This document shows positions 2,945 through 11,144 of a DNA stretch of 11,144 nucleotides, in pieces. Position 1 is the first letter of the stretch. The number at the start of each line of letters is the position of its first letter. Both the position numbers and the translations under genes were made by a program. This DNA is from an uncultured Acholeplasmataceae bacterium (GTDB taxonomy: Bacteria; Bacillota_I; Bacilli_A; Acholeplasmatales; Acholeplasmataceae). Under the pieces are notes generated by a model. The model worked only from the letters and a program-made list of their open reading frames with translations. It did not search any database and had not been told where the DNA came from. The stretch is from contig CALKAH010000306.1 of the NCBI GenBank assembly GCA_937983315.1, positions 1 to 11,144 of the forward strand, given 5' to 3'.

Positions 2945-2950
2945 ATGACG

Positions 2951-3316
2951 ATGAACGCTCAGTTCAAACGAGGCATCATTGAATTATGTGTCTTATCCGT
3001 GCTAGTTGAAAAGGATAGTTACGGTTATGAAATCATCAGTAAACTATCAGAGCATTTAGATGTAGGTGAAAATACCATTTATCCAATTTTAAGACGTTTG
3101 ACCAGTGACGATTACTTTAAAACATATCTCGAAGAATCATCCGAGGGAGCACCTCGTAAATACTATCAAATGACAAAAAAAGGATTTATCTATTATTTAT
3201 CACTGAGAGAAGAGTGGGACGCATTTATTGGTGGCGTCTATCACGTGATTAACCAGGGAGGTAAAAAAAATGAAGACATTCTTAAACGATTTAAAGAACG
3301 AATTGATCAAGAATAA
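2951..3316 (+). CDS. PadR family transcriptional regulator
   Basis: A 121-residue protein, close to the size of short PadR (subfamily 2) regulators. The winged-helix signature is clear: an N-terminal helix with FKRGIIELCVLSVL, then YGYEI (about 24-28), the recognition region NTIYPILRRL (about 41-50), and the wing GAPRKYYQMTKKG (about 66-78), followed by a dimerising C-terminal helix. Short PadR proteins typically repress an adjacent operon and respond to envelope stress or small molecules. Its last 47 nt overlap the next gene in another reading frame, which implies translational coupling. This pairing of PadR with a HAAS/DUF4097 protein is common in Firmicutes. A near-palindrome on its promoter is a candidate autoregulatory site. 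Confidence 0.92.
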   Translation: MNAQFKRGIIELCVLSVLVEKDSYGYEIISKLSEHLDVGENTIYPILRRLTSDDYFKTYLEESSEGAPRKYYQMTKKGFIYYLSLREEWDAFIGGVYHVINQGGKKNEDILKRFKERIDQE

Positions 3317-4223
3317 AGTTGATATGGAAGAAATTGCTGAAATTATTCATGATCATGAAGAAATGATTGCAACTGCAATGGAAGAAGGATTAACCGAAGA
3401 AGAAATACCGGCGAGGTTTGGCGATCCAAAGATATTGGCAAGAGAATTAGCTGAACAGTCTAGAAAACAATCTAAACGGATTGAAAAAGATGGATATACC
3501 TTATATAAGAGCTTTACACCTGAAGAACAAACATTAAATGTGTTTATCCAAATGGTTGCTGAAGATGTGGTGATTCAACCTTCTGAAGATGATGACATTC
3601 ATGTTTATTATCAAGGTAAGGGACATATTGATCGTTATGAAATCTCCTACTCTAAAGACACATTAAAACTTCAAGCACCAAAAACATTAGGACTCTTGTT
3701 CATGCGTTCTTCATCCGATGATATCGATTTCTTAATTGAAATTCCTAAACGTCTTCAAATTGAAGAAGTCAAACAACATGGTGTAAGTTCAGATGTCAGA
3801 TATCAAAATCTCGATGCAAACAAACTCATTATCAATACAACAAGTGGTGATCTATCGATTCAAACAGCTCATTTTCAGTATGTGAAAGTCAATACAGTCA
3901 GTGGTGATCTTGTATTTGAAGATGTCAAGATTGGTGAATTTGAAGCGTCACAAGTGAGCGGTGATTTAAAGATTGAACGCGCAATAATTGAAGGAAACAT
4001 TCATTCAAGCACCGTAAGTGGTGATATCGAAATCAACGATACGGAAGCTAATGAAGTAGAATTTAGCGCTGTTAGCGGTGATGTTAATGGTAAAGAATTC
4101 TATCCAAAAACGATCAAATTCAAATCTGTTTCTGGTGATATGAACTTAACTAACAAAGAGTCAAGAGAAATCAAAGTCATTAAAAACAGTTCATTATCCG
4201 GAAGCATTAATATACATAGTTAA
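3270..4223 (+). CDS. HAAS (DUF1700) domain plus DUF4097 beta-repeat protein
   Basis: A 317-residue protein. Residues 1 to about 70 resemble the HAAS/DUF1700 helical domain (FLNDLKNEL, then DHEEMIATAMEEGLTEEEI, RFGDP, LARELAEQ), which typically partners a PadR regulator. Residues about 85-317 match DUF4097, a putative adhesin-like fold sometimes called Toastrack. It contains seven copies of an SGD/SGS turn at residues 192, 211, 230, 250, 269, 288 and 310, spaced 19-22 residues, as expected of a beta-helix or beta-solenoid. No signal peptide or transmembrane helix is visible, whereas many HAAS proteins have one, so this copy looks cytoplasmic. The SD AGGGAGG (3255-3261) lies inside padR, 8 nt before the start. 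A role in envelope-stress sensing is inferred from relatives only. Confidence 0.85.
   Translation: MKTFLNDLKNELIKNKVDMEEIAEIIHDHEEMIATAMEEGLTEEEIPARFGDPKILARELAEQSRKQSKRIEKDGYTLYKSFTPEEQTLNVFIQMVAEDVVIQPSEDDDIHVYYQGKGHIDRYEISYSKDTLKLQAPKTLGLLFMRSSSDDIDFLIEIPKRLQIEEVKQHGVSSDVRYQNLDANKLIINTTSGDLSIQTAHFQYVKVNTVSGDLVFEDVKIGEFEASQVSGDLKIERAIIEGNIHSSTVSGDIEINDTEANEVEFSAVSGDVNGKEFYPKTIKFKSVSGDMNLTNKESREIKVIKNSSLSGSINIHS
3843..4199 (+). repeat. Seven SGD-turn protein repeats inside the DUF4097 gene
   Basis: The codons for Ser-Gly-Asp (Ser-Gly-Ser in the last) start at 3843, 3900, 3957, 4017, 4074, 4131 and 4197. Most repeats read (T/V)-(V)-SGD-(L/I/V/M) followed by an alternating hydrophobic strand. 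Codons vary between copies (agt, agc, tct, tcc), so this is a conserved protein period and not a recent DNA duplication. Confidence 0.85.
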
Positions 4224-4338: not shown

Positions 4339-4956
4339 ATGAACGCATATGATTCGCTCGATATCACTGAATACATCAATGGTAAACGCGTCGATTATAT
4401 CGATGACACACATACTTATTATGTCGATGGAGTAAAAGTGCCAAGTGTCACACAAATTGTGGCTGCTGTTTTACCATCACCCTATAATGATGTAGAACCT
4501 ACCATTCTTCAACAGGCAGCTCATCGTGGTGTTGCACTTCATAAGGAAATTGAACTCTTTGAAAAACATCAACTTCCTGGATCTTCAATTGAATTTAATA
4601 ATTACATATTCTTAAAAAAATACCATCGTATAGAGTCACTTGATAACGAAAAGCTTGTCATCATTGAAAACGAAGGTAAGATTGTTTGTGCGGGTCGACT
4701 GGATATGATTATCAAAAGTGAGTTAATCAAGGGGATTGGCATAGGTGACGTCAAACGTACTTCAAACATTCATTTTGAACATCTCAAGCTTCAGTTAAAT
4801 CTTTATCGCTTGGGTTATATGCAGTCATATAACAAGACCATTCAATATCTCAAATGCTTTCACCTTCGTAAATTTGTTTATGAACTTATCGATATCCCTA
4901 TTGATGAAAACTTCGCGATTTTAGCCTTGAATAATTACAGTAAAATGGTTTTATAG
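4339..4956 (+). CDS. Stand-alone PD-(D/E)XK (RecB/Cas4-like) nuclease
   Basis: A 205-residue protein with the ordered signature of the RecB-type PD-(D/E)XK superfamily. PSVTQIV (about 34-40) near the N-terminus is typical of phage-like members. Then come helix RGVALHKEIE with H68, strand CAGRLDMI with D122, strand GDVKRTS with D137 and K139, and helix LKLQLNLYRLGY with Q152 and Y156. All metal and catalytic positions seem present, so an active Mg-dependent DNase is likely. There is no helicase domain and no iron-sulphur cysteine cluster, which separates it from AddB or Cas4. The biological role is unknown; relatives are found in phages and in repair genes. The SD GGAGAAG (4328-4334) supports the start. 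It has its own promoter and lies 159 bp before the HTH/PrsW operon. Confidence 0.8.
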   Translation: MNAYDSLDITEYINGKRVDYIDDTHTYYVDGVKVPSVTQIVAAVLPSPYNDVEPTILQQAAHRGVALHKEIELFEKHQLPGSSIEFNNYIFLKKYHRIESLDNEKLVIIENEGKIVCAGRLDMIIKSELIKGIGIGDVKRTSNIHFEHLKLQLNLYRLGYMQSYNKTIQYLKCFHLRKFVYELIDIPIDENFAILALNNYSKMVL

Positions 4957-4970
4957 GGCAATCATTACAG

Positions 4971-5039
4971 AAAAGCAGTTAATTTATAATTTACTATCTA
5001 TTGTTTCACGAGATGAAATTATAATGAAATGCTTTTTTT
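4971..5039 (+). terminator. Possible weak terminator after the nuclease
   Basis: AAAAGCA (4971-4977) can pair with TGCTTTT (5030-5036), and TATAATTT (4985-4992) with AAATTATA (5016-5023), before seven T (5033-5039). The internal loop is asymmetric and the apical loop is 23 nt, so this is a weak structure and the U-tract may be coincidental. Confidence 0.3.
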
Positions 5040-5056
5040 GTTAAGCTGTAGTTAAG
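5040..5056 (+). promoter_or_regulatory. Direct repeat GTTAAG x2 upstream of the HTH operon
   Basis: GTTAAG occurs at 5040-5045 and 5051-5056, 11 bp apart, so both copies face the same side of the helix, about 40 bp upstream of the -10. It could be a binding site for one of the operon's HTH proteins; nothing else supports this. Confidence 0.25.
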
Positions 5057-5090
5057 TACAAACCATCTTTTTAATTTTAATCACAACGTT

Positions 5091-5096
5091 TATAAT
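5091..5096 (+). promoter_or_regulatory. -10 of the HTH-solenoid/PrsW operon
   Basis: A perfect TATAAT 20 bp before ATG 5116. The position 17 bp upstream (TTTTTA) is a poor -35 and there is no TGn. Transcription would begin around 5103, just at the SD, giving a very short leader. Confidence 0.5.
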
Positions 5097-5103
5097 GAAG
5101 TTA

Positions 5104-5110
5104 GAGGTGA
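5104..5110 (+). promoter_or_regulatory. RBS that decides the start at 5116
   Basis: GAGGTGA lies 5 nt before ATG 5116. The upstream in-frame ATG at 5095 overlaps the TATAAT element and has no SD. Confidence 0.7.
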
Positions 5111-5115
5111 GAAGA

Positions 5116-6423
5116 ATGCCGGATATCATTGATAACGTTAAAGTCGGAGAATATATTAAGCAGTTACTCAAAAAGAAAAACATGACGCAAGATGATCTAG
5201 CACAACACTTAAATATCTCAAAAGCAGCTGTATCACAAAATTTGAGGGGTAAAAGCACATTTGATATTAACAATCTAATTGCTATTGCAAATCTATTTGA
5301 GATAACACTCGATGAGCTTTTAAGTCTTAAAACAGAAGAGTCAAAAGAAACTCGATCTGAATATCAAAAGGTTGTTAGTCAAGGACTTGATGCGATTAAG
5401 ACAGTTCAGCCACAAGATCTTCATATTGCAGAACCTGATTTGTATGGGAAAGTTCTAGTTGACTATATCATTGATCAACGCAAACTTTCCATGCTTATCT
5501 ATCTAATTGAGCACAATGTAACGCTTGTTCATGCATATTATCATCGAGCAAAGCAGATATATCTTCATATCATCAAATATCTTCTCGAGGAAAAACGCAG
5601 CGAGTATCAACAATTCGTTACTCTCTATACAGAAATTGTTGGATCATTCAAGGTAGAAGATGAACAACTTGAGATGATCATATGGGGATATCTAAACCAG
5701 GAAAATCATCAAGGGTACATTGAAAGCATCTTAAAAAATAAAACATCATTAAAAACAAGACTATTTGCAATCAAACAAGAGAATGAATGCATCCCATTTA
5801 CGCGAAAGGATTTACTTTTAGTAATTGCGAAATACAAACTTCTAACAATATTGGATACGCTACTCACAGTTCAAAAAAGAGATGATGATTTTATAGAAAT
5901 CGTTCAGTTATTTCTCCAACATGATTTTGAAGAAGGCATTAGATATTTTATTGGTAAATATTATAAGTCACCTATTACGACATTCAAAAAGACCTTACTT
6001 GACGTCCAAAAAGGATTTTTGCTAGCCGTTCAATCTAATCACCTTGAGCTCGTCATCGATTTTGCTTCTCACGGATTATTTACTGATTTAACAACGATTA
6101 CTAAAGAAGCAATTAAATGTAAACATGAGTCAATTTATTCATACCTTCTTGCAAATTATTCCACTGAAATCATCTACAAGCGAATAGCTGAAACCTGCAT
6201 TGAGACGAATAACTTGCACTTACTTGAATCGATTTCAAGCAAATTAACAAAAGATGACCTCAATTATCTAATCAGTTGGGTTAAAATTGATCAAATGGAA
6301 TTGCTGACATATCTTCTAAAAAAAGGTGCTCGTATCGATGAGAAGTACTACAATCTCGATACTTTTAAAAAGATAAACGCATTGATTGATTCATTATTAG
6401 ATAAGGGGAGTGTTTCAGAATGA
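5116..6423 (+). CDS. XRE-type HTH protein with ankyrin-like solenoid
   Basis: A 435-residue soluble protein. Residues about 11-70 are a good Cro/CI (HTH_3) domain: GEYIKQLLKKKNMTQDDLA, recognition helix around SKAAVSQNLRG (35-45), then a LIAIANLFEITLDELLSL closing helix. The remaining 350 residues are helical and leucine-rich with irregular units of roughly 30-35 residues. Some resemble ankyrin repeats, such as the last one with MELLTYLLKKGARID, but most are degenerate, so another alpha-solenoid is possible. Such a domain usually binds a protein or ligand, which suggests a sensor-regulator; this is inference. It is the first gene of a three-gene operon and its TGA overlaps the next ATG (ATGA). 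No catalytic motif was found. Confidence 0.75.
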   Translation: MPDIIDNVKVGEYIKQLLKKKNMTQDDLAQHLNISKAAVSQNLRGKSTFDINNLIAIANLFEITLDELLSLKTEESKETRSEYQKVVSQGLDAIKTVQPQDLHIAEPDLYGKVLVDYIIDQRKLSMLIYLIEHNVTLVHAYYHRAKQIYLHIIKYLLEEKRSEYQQFVTLYTEIVGSFKVEDEQLEMIIWGYLNQENHQGYIESILKNKTSLKTRLFAIKQENECIPFTRKDLLLVIAKYKLLTILDTLLTVQKRDDDFIEIVQLFLQHDFEEGIRYFIGKYYKSPITTFKKTLLDVQKGFLLAVQSNHLELVIDFASHGLFTDLTTITKEAIKCKHESIYSYLLANYSTEIIYKRIAETCIETNNLHLLESISSKLTKDDLNYLISWVKIDQMELLTYLLKKGARIDEKYYNLDTFKKINALIDSLLDKGSVSE

Positions 6424-7082
6424 CATTTATTAAAGACAATTTTGAAATTATTATGATTATTATGTTTATTGCATCTTTTGTTTTACTTACAATCATATTA
6501 TCAATGAATAAATATTTTGCCTTGTATTTTTCAAACAAGAGATTTAAAATACATTCTCATTATGAAGTGAACGCATATGACGGTCGTCGCGACTTCACCA
6601 TTACCATTTTCAACAACAATATAAATGAAGTTAGATTATCTGGATTTGGTTTTGTATATAAGGATCAAAATATTGATTTTTACAAAAACTATTTACTTGA
6701 TCATGCGTTGCCCTCAGATCATAAACTTGTCATACACTCGAGGGACTATCTCACATCTCGAATTGATGTTAACCAATTAAAATCCATAATTTCTGACATC
6801 AATAAAGGTTCACTAGATGTATCATCTATGAAAACTTTCGTTACCGATTCACTAGGTTTATCGGTTACAGCAAAAGCAAAGCAAGTTAAAGATGAAGTCA
6901 GAAAGATGTTAAAGATTGATCGCGATAATTTAAGAAAACAGCATAAAGAGCAAATTCGCAAAAAGAGAGCAGATGATGCGCTTTTCCGTAAAAAGAATAA
7001 GATGGAAAAGCAAATTAAATTTAGAGATAAAACGGGCAGAATCTTGTTAAAGATAAAGGGCTTATTTGCTAAGAAGCATTAG
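6420..7082 (+). CDS. Single-pass membrane protein with basic C-terminal tail, unknown function
   Basis: A 220-residue protein I do not recognise. Residues 8-29 form one strong hydrophobic helix. The flank after it is basic (NKYFALYFSNKRFK) and the short N-terminus is near neutral, so the positive-inside rule places the large C-terminal part in the cytoplasm. Residues about 42-110 alternate like a small beta-sandwich (FTITIFNNNINEVRLSGFGF). Residues about 152-220 are a helical segment dense in Lys/Arg, possibly nucleic-acid or lipid binding. The start overlaps the previous stop by 4 nt, with SD AAGGGGAG (6403-6410) 9 nt upstream. Lying just before a PrsW-type protease, it is a natural candidate substrate or partner, but no cleavage site can be named. 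By eye it is very AT-rich. Confidence 0.7.
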   Translation: MTFIKDNFEIIMIIMFIASFVLLTIILSMNKYFALYFSNKRFKIHSHYEVNAYDGRRDFTITIFNNNINEVRLSGFGFVYKDQNIDFYKNYLLDHALPSDHKLVIHSRDYLTSRIDVNQLKSIISDINKGSLDVSSMKTFVTDSLGLSVTAKAKQVKDEVRKMLKIDRDNLRKQHKEQIRKKRADDALFRKKNKMEKQIKFRDKTGRILLKIKGLFAKKH

Positions 7083-7090
7083 GTGATCTA

Positions 7091-8248
7091 ATGAATAAAA
7101 TCGAAATCGCAACAATGGTTAAAGAAAGTCGAATATCAAAAGGTATAGATGAAGAGTCTATCATACAAGCATTAGGCATTGATCAAAGATTGTTTAGTCA
7201 ATATGAAAATGCCGAAGCGATGATACCGGATAGTTTATTAAAGAAATGGGCTGATATACTATCGATACCCTATGAGGATTTGAATCTTGAAGAAGATGTT
7301 GATTTTGATCCGCCAAAGTTTGTTACTGGACTTATTATGTATCCACCACACGCACGAAAAATCACTTTTAAGGATATATTTGGTGGATTCAAAGCGAGCA
7401 TTAAAGAAAAAGGAAAACAGAAGAGTCTAGAAATACTAGAAAACCATCTTTTTCATCCAGATAGGTTGCAAAATCAAACACCTAAATTATATATTTTCAC
7501 ATTTGTTACGCTATTTATCGTATTCTGGGCAGCATCATTAATTGGTGACATTGTTTTAACAAACTTATCATTGAGTATGATTGTTCCACTGTCGCTATTG
7601 GTTCTTATGCTTGAATTACATTATCCGAAAAATGTTAAGGGTATTTCTTTACTTTCGCATTATGCACTCGGAGGTATATTCTCGATTTTCACGGTGTTCT
7701 TAGTGAGAAGTTATACGGGGTATGTTGATGTTCCCTTTTTAGGTGATTTACTGACTGCTTTTGTAGAAGAACTGTCAAAAATATTCATCGTGTTGATTAT
7801 ACTAAGTAGAATGCGTGTTAAACACGTGATGACGGGAATATTAATTGGTTTTGCAGTAGGTGCTGGGTTTAATGCATTCGAAAATTCTCAATATGGTGTT
7901 GTTACATTTTTCGAAGAATTTGATTTAAATGCCATGTACGATACATTATTTATCAGAAGTATCTATGACTTATTTGGTATTGGTCATCACTTCTGGACAG
8001 CAATTTTAGGTGGGACTCTTGTTATGGTTAGCTCGACAACATCCATTCGAGTTAAAGCATTATTTCATCCCCTATTTCTACAGACTTTTGTACTTGTAAT
8101 GCTCATCCACGCATGTTTTAATTTTTCGAGTTATGTATCGATATGGTTGACTATCGTAATTGTGGTTATAAGTTTGGTCATCTTTATTAGATTCTATTCG
8201 ATTGCATATCGGAGATATTACTTGAATGATACACTTCCTAAAGAATAA
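7091..8248 (+). CDS. HTH domain fused to PrsW-type intramembrane metalloprotease
   Basis: A 385-residue protein. Residues about 5-64 look like a divergent XRE-type HTH (helices around ATMVKESRISKGI, ESIIQALGID, LFSQYENAE, LLKKWADILSI, then PYEDL). After a linker, from about 134 onward come roughly eight hydrophobic segments. The PrsW signature is complete: FVEELSK (E226/E227), GFNAFENSQY (E264), GHHFWTAILGG (H299/H300) and LIHACFNF (H340). These positions correspond to the family's proposed zinc ligands and catalytic residues. B. subtilis PrsW cleaves the anti-sigma factor RsiW; this protein's substrate is unknown. The SD AGGTG (7081-7085) overlaps the previous stop, so the genes are coupled. 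A soluble DNA-binding-like head on a membrane protease is unusual and suggests that it talks directly to DNA or to the first gene's product. Confidence 0.85.
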   Translation: MNKIEIATMVKESRISKGIDEESIIQALGIDQRLFSQYENAEAMIPDSLLKKWADILSIPYEDLNLEEDVDFDPPKFVTGLIMYPPHARKITFKDIFGGFKASIKEKGKQKSLEILENHLFHPDRLQNQTPKLYIFTFVTLFIVFWAASLIGDIVLTNLSLSMIVPLSLLVLMLELHYPKNVKGISLLSHYALGGIFSIFTVFLVRSYTGYVDVPFLGDLLTAFVEELSKIFIVLIILSRMRVKHVMTGILIGFAVGAGFNAFENSQYGVVTFFEEFDLNAMYDTLFIRSIYDLFGIGHHFWTAILGGTLVMVSSTTSIRVKALFHPLFLQTFVLVMLIHACFNFSSYVSIWLTIVIVVISLVIFIRFYSIAYRRYYLNDTLPKE

Positions 8249-8250
8249 AA

Positions 8251-8284
8251 CCAACAGAAGAGCGATTTGCTCTTTTTTTGTTGG
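8251..8284 (+). terminator. Terminator of the HTH/PrsW operon
   Basis: AAGAGC (8258-8263) pairs with GCTCTT (8269-8274) around GATTT, with a seven-T tract from 8273. An outer CCAACA/TGTTGG pairing (8251-8256 with 8279-8284) can extend the hairpin. Confidence 0.85.
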
Positions 8285-8320: not shown

Positions 8321-8383
8321 AAAACCATAATGTCGATACTGCAACTCTGATTGGCACCGAATAAAAGAAAGAAGGCGTGTCAG

Positions 8384-11144
8384 ATGAAAAAAATCGTTCT
8401 GATCATCTTTTTGATGATTGTTTTAGCGTTGGTGGGGTGTTCAAAAGATCAAAAAGTAGAAGTCACCTTTGATACCAATGGCGGTTCAGCCATTGAAACG
8501 ATCACATCACTCACCGACTTGTTAGCAGGTATTCCATCAACAGCACGCGCGGGTTATACATTTGATGGATGGTATACCGATGAAGACTTAACAGAATCCT
8601 TTGATCCATTAGATGAAAGGGATTCATGGGAATTAACAATCTATGCGAAGTGGATTGCTAATGCCAAAACCTATTCAGTTGAACATTATCAGGAGGAACT
8701 GAATGGTTCATTTACTTTAATCGATACCGATAACCTCGAAGGTGTTACTGATCAGGTTGTCACCTTGACAGCAAACACCTATGAAGGATTTACGTACCAA
8801 GCATCACATGCATTAGGGGTAGCAACGATGACACTACCTGCGACAGGTGATGCTGTATTAAAAGCGTATTATACGAGAAACACCTATATCGTTAACTTAA
8901 ATGAAGCGGGGGGAACCCATGTCACGAATCCGCTGTTTAAGTACGGACAAACCATCGTCTTACCAGAAACAACACGTTTTGGATTCACATTCTTGGGATG
9001 GGGAACATATCCAACGACCATGCCTGCTGGGGATTTAAATTTGACGGCATTATGGGAAGAACTTGATCAATTTGTGGTTACCTTTGATTCTAAAGGTGGA
9101 TCGACGGTTGATGCACAAACGATCTATGATGGATATCTCGCTACAGAACCAACCAGTCCAACACGCATAGGATATACATTCAATGGTTGGGTTATCTCAG
9201 GAGGTTCTTCAACCTATCTCTTTACAACACCTGTGACTGAAAATATGACCTTGGAAGCACGATGGACACCCATTCTTGTCAACTACACAACGCGTATTTA
9301 TACAGAAGCACTTGATGGTTCATATGTGTTATCCAATACCGTCATCAACCAAGCATTAACAGAAAGTACTGCAACAGCTGCAATGCCTGATGTTTTAGGA
9401 TTTACAGAACATACAACTCATCAAGATCGTATCATTGAAGGTACGGTTTTAGGTGATGGTTCATTGATACTCTCTCGTTATTATTCTCGAAACACGTATA
9501 CGATTACATTTGAAGCAAACGCCAATCTTTCAATTCAATCGATTGTTGCGAAATATCAAGCCAATATCGTCGCACCGTCAAATCCAATTCGTAGTGGCTA
9601 TGAATTTATGGGATGGTATCAAGATTCCGCATTAACAACACCTTATGTATTTACAACGATGCCAGCAGGTGGAACAACTGTTTATGCCAAGTGGCAAGGT
9701 CTACCAACAACACTCAATTTCAATAGTAATGGTGGAACAACAGTCACTTCAATCACTGCACCATTAGGCGATACCATCATCGAACCTGCATCACCAACCA
9801 AAGAAGGATTTAGTTTTGCTGGATGGTATGAAGATGTTGAACTCACTCAATCCTTTACAACATGGATTATGCCTGCGGGTGGTATGACACTTTATGCGAA
9901 GTGGAATGCTAATCTCTATACCATCACGTTTGAAGAAAATGGAGGTTCAACGGTAGCTGATATCATACAAGGATATCAAACTGCAGTAAGTGCTCCTCTA
10001 TCCCCAACAAAGACAGATTATCTATTTGCTGGATGGTATCGTGATCTTGAACTTCAACAACCTTATACCTTTACAACGATGCCTTTAAACGGACTAACAC
10101 TGTATGCAAAATGGATCACTGAAGAAGAAGGTATGAATCTAGGATATATCGCTACATTAGATCCATATACAGAAGTCCATGTTCAAGGTACGGTCTTCAT
10201 GATGTCAATCGATCCTTATGTTGGATTCTATATCACAGATGGATACGCCAATATCTATGTCATGTATGACCAAGATCTTGTTGTTTTGGGATCATCCTAT
10301 GAAATGGATGCTATCCTGATTCATCAAGATGGACTACCAAAACTTGCCTATGTCCAAAATGTTGAGCTGATTGTTCAAACCTATGATGTCATCACACCAA
10401 CACCGATGACAATGAACCAGATGATCGCATTATCAAGCGAACAACCTTATGCACAATCGATTGAACTTACGGGTATATTGAAACAAGGTAACCTGGATAG
10501 CATACGCGATTTATTGACAGGTGAAGAAGTTTATTTAAGTAAGCAATTTATCCCAACATCCTATGCAGATGGTTATGATGATCATGTCACGATTAAGGGT
10601 GTTATTCATCGCTATCAGGGTTCTTGGATTCTTGGCGTTTATGAGATATCGATTACACCTCTAACATCGCTTGATCGCGCAGAAATGGTGAGAGATTACT
10701 TAGATGCTTCCTATCCGACAAGTTTTGAAGGTATGGATCCTTTCCCGTTCATCACCGATGATCCATGGGGATTCTCATCCATCAGTATGGCATTCGATAG
10801 TCTTGATGAACCCTATTATGATCTTGTCAATCAACGGTTTGTTGCGGTCACAGAAGTTATCGTGATGAACGTCAATGTTGATATGGATATTGATGGAATT
10901 ATATACGATCATGCGCTATTATTTGACTTACAACCACGACTCTATCAAACCATTGATGATGTCATTGATGGTAGCGATTCAATGATATATAACCTTCATG
11001 GTACGATTGTGATGGCACATCCAGAATGGGGTATTTATGTCATTCAAGATTCGACAGGAGATCTTTATTTGCGAGGATCACTTGATCTAAACTATGGCGA
11101 TGAAGTTGCAGTCACTATCACGCGTGTTTCACAATCCCATATGA
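8384..11144 (+). CDS. Large lipoprotein with InlB B-repeats, MucBP-like repeats and OB-fold-like tail (3' end outside the window)
   Basis: Open from ATG 8384 to the window edge, at least 920 codons without a stop. The N-terminus is a lipoprotein signal: KK, a hydrophobic core and lipobox LVGC with lipidated C19, so the protein is anchored on the outer face of the membrane. Six InlB B-type (Listeria-Bacteroides) repeats lie at about residues 25-90, 166-224, 231-294, 370-437, 441-507 and 511-577, each ending near (F/Y)-x-GW...A-x-W. Between them, at about 95-165 and 295-369, are two MucBP-like segments that end in YTR or YSR. After residue 585 come several sheet-rich units such as VHVQGTV...GFYITDG and YNLHGTI...GIYVIQD that look like OB-fold repeats. 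The SD GAAGG ends 8 nt before the start. A role in surface adhesion or ligand binding is inferred from these domains. Confidence 0.88.
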   Translation, partial: MKKIVLIIFLMIVLALVGCSKDQKVEVTFDTNGGSAIETITSLTDLLAGIPSTARAGYTFDGWYTDEDLTESFDPLDERDSWELTIYAKWIANAKTYSVEHYQEELNGSFTLIDTDNLEGVTDQVVTLTANTYEGFTYQASHALGVATMTLPATGDAVLKAYYTRNTYIVNLNEAGGTHVTNPLFKYGQTIVLPETTRFGFTFLGWGTYPTTMPAGDLNLTALWEELDQFVVTFDSKGGSTVDAQTIYDGYLATEPTSPTRIGYTFNGWVISGGSSTYLFTTPVTENMTLEARWTPILVNYTTRIYTEALDGSYVLSNTVINQALTESTATAAMPDVLGFTEHTTHQDRIIEGTVLGDGSLILSRYYSRNTYTITFEANANLSIQSIVAKYQANIVAPSNPIRSGYEFMGWYQDSALTTPYVFTTMPAGGTTVYAKWQGLPTTLNFNSNGGTTVTSITAPLGDTIIEPASPTKEGFSFAGWYEDVELTQSFTTWIMPAGGMTLYAKWNANLYTITFEENGGSTVADIIQGYQTAVSAPLSPTKTDYLFAGWYRDLELQQPYTFTTMPLNGLTLYAKWITEEEGMNLGYIATLDPYTEVHVQGTVFMMSIDPYVGFYITDGYANIYVMYDQDLVVLGSSYEMDAILIHQDGLPKLAYVQNVELIVQTYDVITPTPMTMNQMIALSSEQPYAQSIELTGILKQGNLDSIRDLLTGEEVYLSKQFIPTSYADGYDDHVTIKGVIHRYQGSWILGVYEISITPLTSLDRAEMVRDYLDASYPTSFEGMDPFPFITDDPWGFSSISMAFDSLDEPYYDLVNQRFVAVTEVIVMNVNVDMDIDGIIYDHALLFDLQPRLYQTIDDVIDGSDSMIYNLHGTIVMAHPEWGIYVIQDSTGDLYLRGSLDLNYGDEVAVTITRVSQSHM
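8456..10114 (+). repeat. Six InlB B-type repeats within the lipoprotein gene
   Basis: The units span about 8456-8653, 8879-9055, 9074-9265, 9491-9694, 9704-9904 and 9914-10114. Core motifs run TFDTNGGS, FDGWY, YAKW (unit 1) through TFEENGGS, FAGWY, YAKW (unit 6). Units 4 to 6 are the most alike and share the DNA string tttacaacgatgcc at 9649-9662 and 10069-10082, suggesting later duplication of the 3' units. Units 2 and 3 have diverged, with FLGWG and FNGWV in place of GWY. Confidence 0.8.

Follow-up and report, generated by a model that had tools for sequence, protein, structure and literature searches.

A conserved two-gene operon from an Acholeplasmataceae bacterium and its relatives with a predicted autoregulator, a putative membrane partner and an optional PrsW protease

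The locus investigated here is located on a stretch of 11,144 nucleotides from an uncultured Acholeplasmataceae bacterium, a member of the wall-less relatives of Acholeplasma (contig CALKAH010000306.1; hereafter the window), and comprises three consecutive genes, designated A, B and C. The initial annotation regarded them as one apparently undescribed membrane-proteolysis module, which raises the question which of the three genes form a conserved unit, what the DNA-binding protein A acts upon and whether the protease C is an integral part of the system. The basic layout is as originally described: the three open reading frames, the 4-nt stop/start overlap between A and B (ATGA, 6420-6423) and the junction TTAGGTGATCTAATG between B and C, in which an SD-like AGGTGA overlaps the stop codon of B, are all present (Table 1). 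A second in-frame ATG for gene A is found at position 5095, and the downstream start was chosen because it is favoured by the homologues and by the Shine-Dalgarno sequence. Of the single promoter and the single terminator proposed for the locus, the terminator has been borne out whereas the promoter itself had been missed. The comparison with related loci showed that the two-gene arrangement of A and B is general and that the three-gene arrangement is not.

Table 1. Features of the A-B-C locus; positions refer to the window.
Feature	Position	Strand	Remarks
Operator O2 (predicted)	4978-4994	+	degenerate 17-bp palindrome GTTAATTTATAATTTAC, consensus GTTMAGTNNNACTKAAC; 73 bp upstream of O1; 11/14, weak
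Extra half site GTTAAG	5040-5045	+	11 bp upstream of O1; GTTAA at such spacing in several relatives
Operator O1 (predicted)	5051-5063	+	GTTAAGTACAAAC; 40 bp upstream of -10
-35 TTTTTA	5068-5073	+	weak; read by eye
Promoter -10 TATAAT	5091-5096	+	position conserved in relatives (20/23 loci)
Shine-Dalgarno GAGGTG of gene A	5104-5109	+	read from sequence
Gene A	5116-6423	+	435 aa; XRE-type HTH (~residues 7-69) and ankyrin-like helical solenoid (~82-434); proposed autoregulator
Gene B	6420-7082	+	220 aa; N-out single TM helix (~8-39), cytoplasmic beta-sandwich domain (42-152), basic helical tail (154-217, net +17)
Gene C	7091-8248	+	385 aa; weak N-terminal HTH and PrsW intramembrane protease; optional third gene
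Intrinsic terminator	8256-8276	+	9-pair stem, then T-run

Judged from gene order, the conserved unit is formed by the first two genes. B is located directly downstream of A in all 22 loci in which DNA beyond A is visible (the window, L001-L007, L009-L014, L016-L018, L052, L137-L139 and L152), 17 of which are the window itself or were found via A, while the other five (L052, L137-L139, L152) were found via B. The proposed link between A and a membrane protein is thus upheld. In each of the 17 loci measured, B starts between -13 and +4 nt relative to the end of A, and the pairwise distances of A and B are correlated (r 0.93, 136 pairs), as would also be expected from plain common descent. The distribution of the pair is patchy, with seven of 160 genomes in the order of G005 and nine of 90 in the order of G010. 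Decayed A-B remnants were detected in two further loci (G018, G019), and in G008 and G196 A was seen only at contig ends. Relatives of all three proteins are present in the protein collection, and those of A come from genomes labelled as Acholeplasma, Acholeplasmataceae or Izemoplasmatales or carrying one of a few broader Bacilli designations.

The N-terminal domain of A is of the XRE/Cro type, with matches above the Pfam cut-off for HTH_3 (E 2.3e-11) and HTH_26 (E 7e-10). Its mean identity among 17 loci amounts to 66%, compared with 31% for the solenoid. The order of domains, an HTH followed by a helical solenoid, is shared with the RRNPP regulators (ComR, PrgX, Rgg, PlcR), and ComR, PrgX and Rgg are among the top Foldseek rows for A. 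However, ankyrin chains align to far more residues of the solenoid than RRNPP proteins do, and among ORFs of at least 50 aa the neighbour of A encodes a membrane protein (B, 220 aa in the window) instead of a peptide pheromone in 22 of 22 loci. From autoregulators of the XRE, P22-c2 and SinR type, A differs by the ankyrin-like solenoid and the coupled membrane partner. The structure of this partner was predicted with high confidence values (AlphaFold2 pLDDT 91.4). B contains one hydrophobic stretch, whose C-terminal flank is richer in K/R than the N-terminal one in all 45 relatives; this charge-based topology leaves about nine residues outside the membrane. The tail carries a net charge of +11 to +31 across the same 45 relatives. 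No Pfam or NCBIfam family scored above its cut-off for B, which accordingly belongs to a family matched by no Pfam model.

The region upstream of A harbors a promoter and two predicted operators, O1 and O2. A generic sigma-70 scan did not list the -10 element (nine sites found versus 17.6 expected in shuffles), whose assignment is instead supported by a position shared among 20 of 23 loci. In just as many loci the GTTAAG motif of O1 is located 39-40 bp upstream of a -10 with at least five of the six letters of TATAAT, which is exact in 15 loci and one letter off in five. This arrangement was recovered in a mean of 0.03 and a maximum of one of the 23 loci in 300 dinucleotide-shuffle sets, and among the upstream regions of 181 other ORFs from the same loci it was absent. 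Locus L152, which was fetched once O1 had already been defined, exhibits the one-letter variant GTTAATAAATAAC at the place of O1. The O2 palindrome is present in 21 of 23 loci with scores of 10-14 out of 14. Its summed score is 273 versus 204 +/- 3.7 (maximum 213) in shuffles, a descriptive value, since the consensus was read from the same scored sequences; both operators were defined on the loci used for scoring, several of which are close relatives. In the window, O2 represents the best palindrome of the upstream stretch (11/14), with shuffles averaging about 9. The distance between O2 and O1 ranges from 63 to 76 bp, with 16 loci at 72-76 bp, three at 66 bp and two at 63 bp. With respect to the helical turn these 21 spacings are clustered (R 0.71), though imperfectly because of the three 66-bp loci. 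L010 and L130, in both of which the HTH has diverged, contain GQKNL or SRKNL in the segment that elsewhere reads D[ILM][QN]N[LM], and neither O1 nor O2 is found at the conserved place in them; the GTTAAG of L130 is located off this place, at -41 from the start codon. The initial annotation had proposed that the soluble HTH protein controls the operon, and the two operators in its own promoter, conserved in 20 (O1) and 21 (O2) of 23 loci, speak in its favour. A thus appears to be an autoregulator.

In the genomes with A that were searched, the O1-promoter pattern is restricted to A. The search for the O1-promoter pattern (GTTAAGNNNNAACN{24,29}TATAAT) in 16 genomes with A, including G018 with its decayed copy and G008 with a copy cut by the contig end, resulted in nine matches, one each in nine genomes and all at A, and in none for the reversed control. 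The strict pattern is unmatched in the other seven genomes because their sites differ slightly. Among the 160 genomes, 19 matches were obtained, seven of them in genomes with an intact, partial or decayed A and all seven at A. The remaining 12, compared with nine for the reversed control, stem from A-less genomes, and none precedes an A. Two of them are located before an S16-like ribosomal protein gene in two A-less genomes and have a good -35, so that A is not the only place of the pattern within the order. For O2 at a score of at least 13/14, nine of the ten matches listed from the fetched loci (0.69 Mb, with some overlap) correspond to A promoters (eight distinct sites), and the remaining one is internal to an ORF of an A-less genome. 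Within these searches the operator pattern of genomes with A was seen only at A, which most likely reflects a regulator of essentially its own operon and little else. A single-operon regulon would be normal in this group of bacteria, since 21 transcription factors of A. laidlawii are described to regulate only their own operon (PMC5138195); the section of that paper on these factors names no pair of an XRE-ankyrin and a membrane protein.

The third gene encodes a member of the PrsW family (PF13367, E 9.3e-19, 68.2 bits versus a cut-off of 23.5). The residues E226, E227, E264, H299 and H340 are invariant in 31 aligned sequences, and we take the conserved Glu-Glu and His motif residues to be catalytic. 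The N-terminal HTH of C is weak and remains below the cut-off (HTH_3, E 0.026); of the two HTH proteins proposed to flank the membrane protein, that of A passes the Pfam cut-off and that of C does not. A PrsW gene follows B in five (window, L001, L004, L011, L013) of the 20 loci in which the visible downstream sequence amounts to at least about 600 nt. On the genome level, 19 genomes with A-B were searched for PF13367 (G001-G007, G009-G017, G040, G197, G198); matches were obtained in five (G001, G002, G004, G011, G012) and none in 14, and some of these absences may be gaps since many assemblies are metagenomic and of untold completeness. The protease also occurs apart from the pair. PF13367 exceeds the cut-off in 14 of 160 and five of 90 genomes of the two orders, and 14 of these 19 PrsW-bearing genomes are devoid of A-B. 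The idea of the three genes as one unit is therefore not supported; as regards PrsW, this is the outcome that the initial annotation itself had named as a refutation.

Nevertheless, A-B and PrsW are adjacent in four of the five genomes that contain both; the exception is G002, whose PrsW is located elsewhere (L021), beside a kinase-like gene. Their co-occurrence exceeds the expectation (5 versus 1.2 among 250 genomes, Fisher p 0.004, a value that ignores kinship). In the PrsW tree (49 rows), the linkage to A-B changes at least twice based on the five locus-verified rows, and three times once two short metagenomic contigs or all nine labelled rows are included. On these two contigs (3,824 and 3,732 bp), all three genes seem to lie side by side, as judged from the equal sizes of the matched contigs, which are too short for other layouts. 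The linkage thus recurs, yet most genomes with A-B exhibit no PrsW match, and the association is accordingly recurrent but not required. On the basis of these occurrence patterns, there is a real though non-obligate association of PrsW with A-B, and the best reading of the protease is that of an optional, lineage-specific add-on.

The same observations bear on an obligate circuit of regulated intramembrane proteolysis, in which PrsW cuts B and thereby frees or destroys a regulator. The recurrent linkage, the excess of co-occurrence and the two short contigs are in its favour; the 14 A-B genomes with no PrsW match and the remote PrsW of G002 are not, and B exposes only about nine residues to the outside, an N-terminus that by eye looks alike whether or not PrsW is linked to the locus. 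We therefore regard such a circuit as unlikely. Its archetype is the B. subtilis PrsW-RsiW-SigW system, in which, as outlined in PMC5358783 and PMC6686233, RsiW is cleaved by PrsW and then by RasP, and membrane proteolysis frees a transcription factor. The resemblance consists in a PF13367 protease with conserved motifs and in a single-pass protein with a cytoplasmic domain beside a DNA-binding protein. In contrast to RsiW, B matched none of the anti-sigma Pfam models and has almost no extracytoplasmic part, and most A-B genomes show no match to the PrsW that such a circuit requires; on these three counts an RsiW/PrsW-type anti-sigma circuit was rejected. The extra N-terminal domain of C is reminiscent of PrsW proteins fused to cytoplasmic signalling domains (PilZ, cNMP, FHA, Zn-ribbon; PMC3482391), although it is a weak HTH, which is not among the domains given there.

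Our preferred reading, to which we assign a probability of roughly 60%, is an autoregulated A-B operon in which A binds O1 and O2, B serves as a membrane partner that feeds back, and PrsW is an optional addition. A would be a cytosolic XRE-type protein that occupies both operators at its own promoter and, as far as detected, nowhere else, and its output would therefore be the level of A and B. O1 would be bound just upstream of the -35, and O2 at a distance of another six to seven helical turns in the upstream direction. Because O1 abuts the -35, repression and class-II-like activation would both be possible, and the roughly equal helical phase of O2 suggests cooperative binding or looping. 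The membrane-anchored and cytoplasm-facing B most likely binds the ankyrin-like solenoid of A and would inform A of the membrane state or of how much B is free, resulting in a homeostatic feedback loop from membrane to promoter. Since no target of A other than its own operon was detected, the loop would in the simplest case serve to keep B at a fixed level and to shift this level once B becomes occupied, is lost or is cleaved. An HTH-PrsW protease would have joined the operon in a minority of lineages, and there it probably cuts or clears a membrane protein, with B as the obvious candidate. A further-reaching version, which we put forward only tentatively, is that of an undescribed class of membrane-to-DNA switch, i.e. 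an ankyrin-type XRE regulator with one promoter and two helically phased operators, gated by a membrane-anchored beta-domain partner, into which HTH-PrsW has been plugged more than once as an optional switch for the removal of this partner.

XRE autoregulation is common and therefore says little about function. What is unusual about A-B is the combination of an ankyrin-like solenoid, a promoter with two operators and a membrane partner, and the searches of the literature collection used here listed no paper that names the A-B pair or an HTH-PrsW fusion. All in all, its conservation in sequence and gene order characterizes A-B as a real and well-conserved two-gene system with an optional protease, and as a variant of autoregulated HTH operons. 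What looked like a protease cassette would thereby become a compact and testable circuit of one dedicated regulator, one two-operator promoter and one membrane partner. The presence of the protease in some relatives and its absence from others provides a natural comparison for what PrsW adds, and B offers a first candidate for what the HTH-PrsW proteases in this group may cleave.

The combination of a private, apparently autoregulated two-gene operon, as in type II toxin-antitoxin systems, with a short coupled second gene could also indicate a toxin-antitoxin-like or defence pair, with A as the autoregulating antitoxin and B as a membrane-acting toxin. The patchy distribution in seven of 160 and nine of 90 genomes and the two decayed copies would fit as well. 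This explanation is improbable, since B homologues are found without A in eight of nine genomes tested for A, five of them clear (E 1e-20 or better; G413, G422, G212, G155, G156) and three remote (G114, G042, G046). B therefore has a role beyond the pair, and these solo homologues argue against a protein that is simply toxic. Both proteins are, moreover, long and well conserved. The initial annotation had also suggested to look for prophages and defence islands as the genomic surroundings. The profiles of A, B and C had no match in viral contigs, B alone had none in plasmid and phage collections, and the PADLOC defence-model matches of A and C are confined to their HTH parts, with AbiEi (E 0.031) as the only one for B. 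Quite improbable, finally, is a role of A-B as a membrane tether for DNA, with another regulator binding the operators. The strongly conserved HTH and the membrane anchor of B with its positively charged tail would suit it. However, neither of the two loci with a diverged HTH retains the operators at their place, and one would expect many sites for a tether instead of a pattern that genomes with A show only at A.

Two minor observations concern homologues outside the pair. A solo A-like protein of G006 (L132) is encoded after a recombinase-like gene, and remote B-like genes adjoin a phosphopentomutase-like gene in G040, G042 and G046, the first of which also harbors A-B.

The components of the A-B pair also occur apart from it. 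A-like regulators, which combine an HTH with a solenoid, exist on their own, as is documented by genome G006, where such a gene stands without B and is preceded by a recombinase-like gene (L132, 1613-2902). Remote B-like one-TM proteins adjoin a phosphopentomutase-like gene in three genomes (L134, 1838-2893; L141, 3290-4384; L155, 3208-4236), and this neighbor represents a conserved A-less context of the remote B-like genes. The HTH-PrsW protease, the optional third member C, likewise has a second conserved context, namely the vicinity of a kinase gene resembling butyrate kinase, which it adjoins in G002 and G055 (L021, L072).

Decayed copies of A-B are present as well (L019, L135, L136). In G018 (L019), both putative operators of the A promoter, the GTTAAG box O1 and the 17-bp palindrome O2, are retained upstream of the broken A gene. 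A GTTAAG box at O1 spacing was also observed in two A-less genomes, where it lies ahead of the consensus promoter that serves an S16-like ribosomal gene (L119, L121).

The genes flanking A-B-C in the window are compiled in the table below. The exonuclease-like gene upstream of A has a counterpart in L001 (720-1349), which is equally positioned ahead of A. Downstream of A-B, the loci L003, L005 and L011 encode proteins that resemble the surface protein of the window, a likeness judged by eye.

Genes flanking A-B-C in the window
Position	Feature	Basis or remark
797-1807	GNAT acetyltransferase domain, C-terminal to a part with a weak nucleotidyltransferase match	
2945-4223	PadR-family regulator gene overlapping a HAAS/DUF4097 toastrack gene	
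4339-4956	Phage-type exonuclease-like gene, stand-alone	phrog_298, E 7.7e-15; weak Cas4 matches
8372-11143	Surface protein of large size, lipoprotein-like and carrying InlB/List_Bact repeats	Flg_new, E 5.3e-81; continues past the window end
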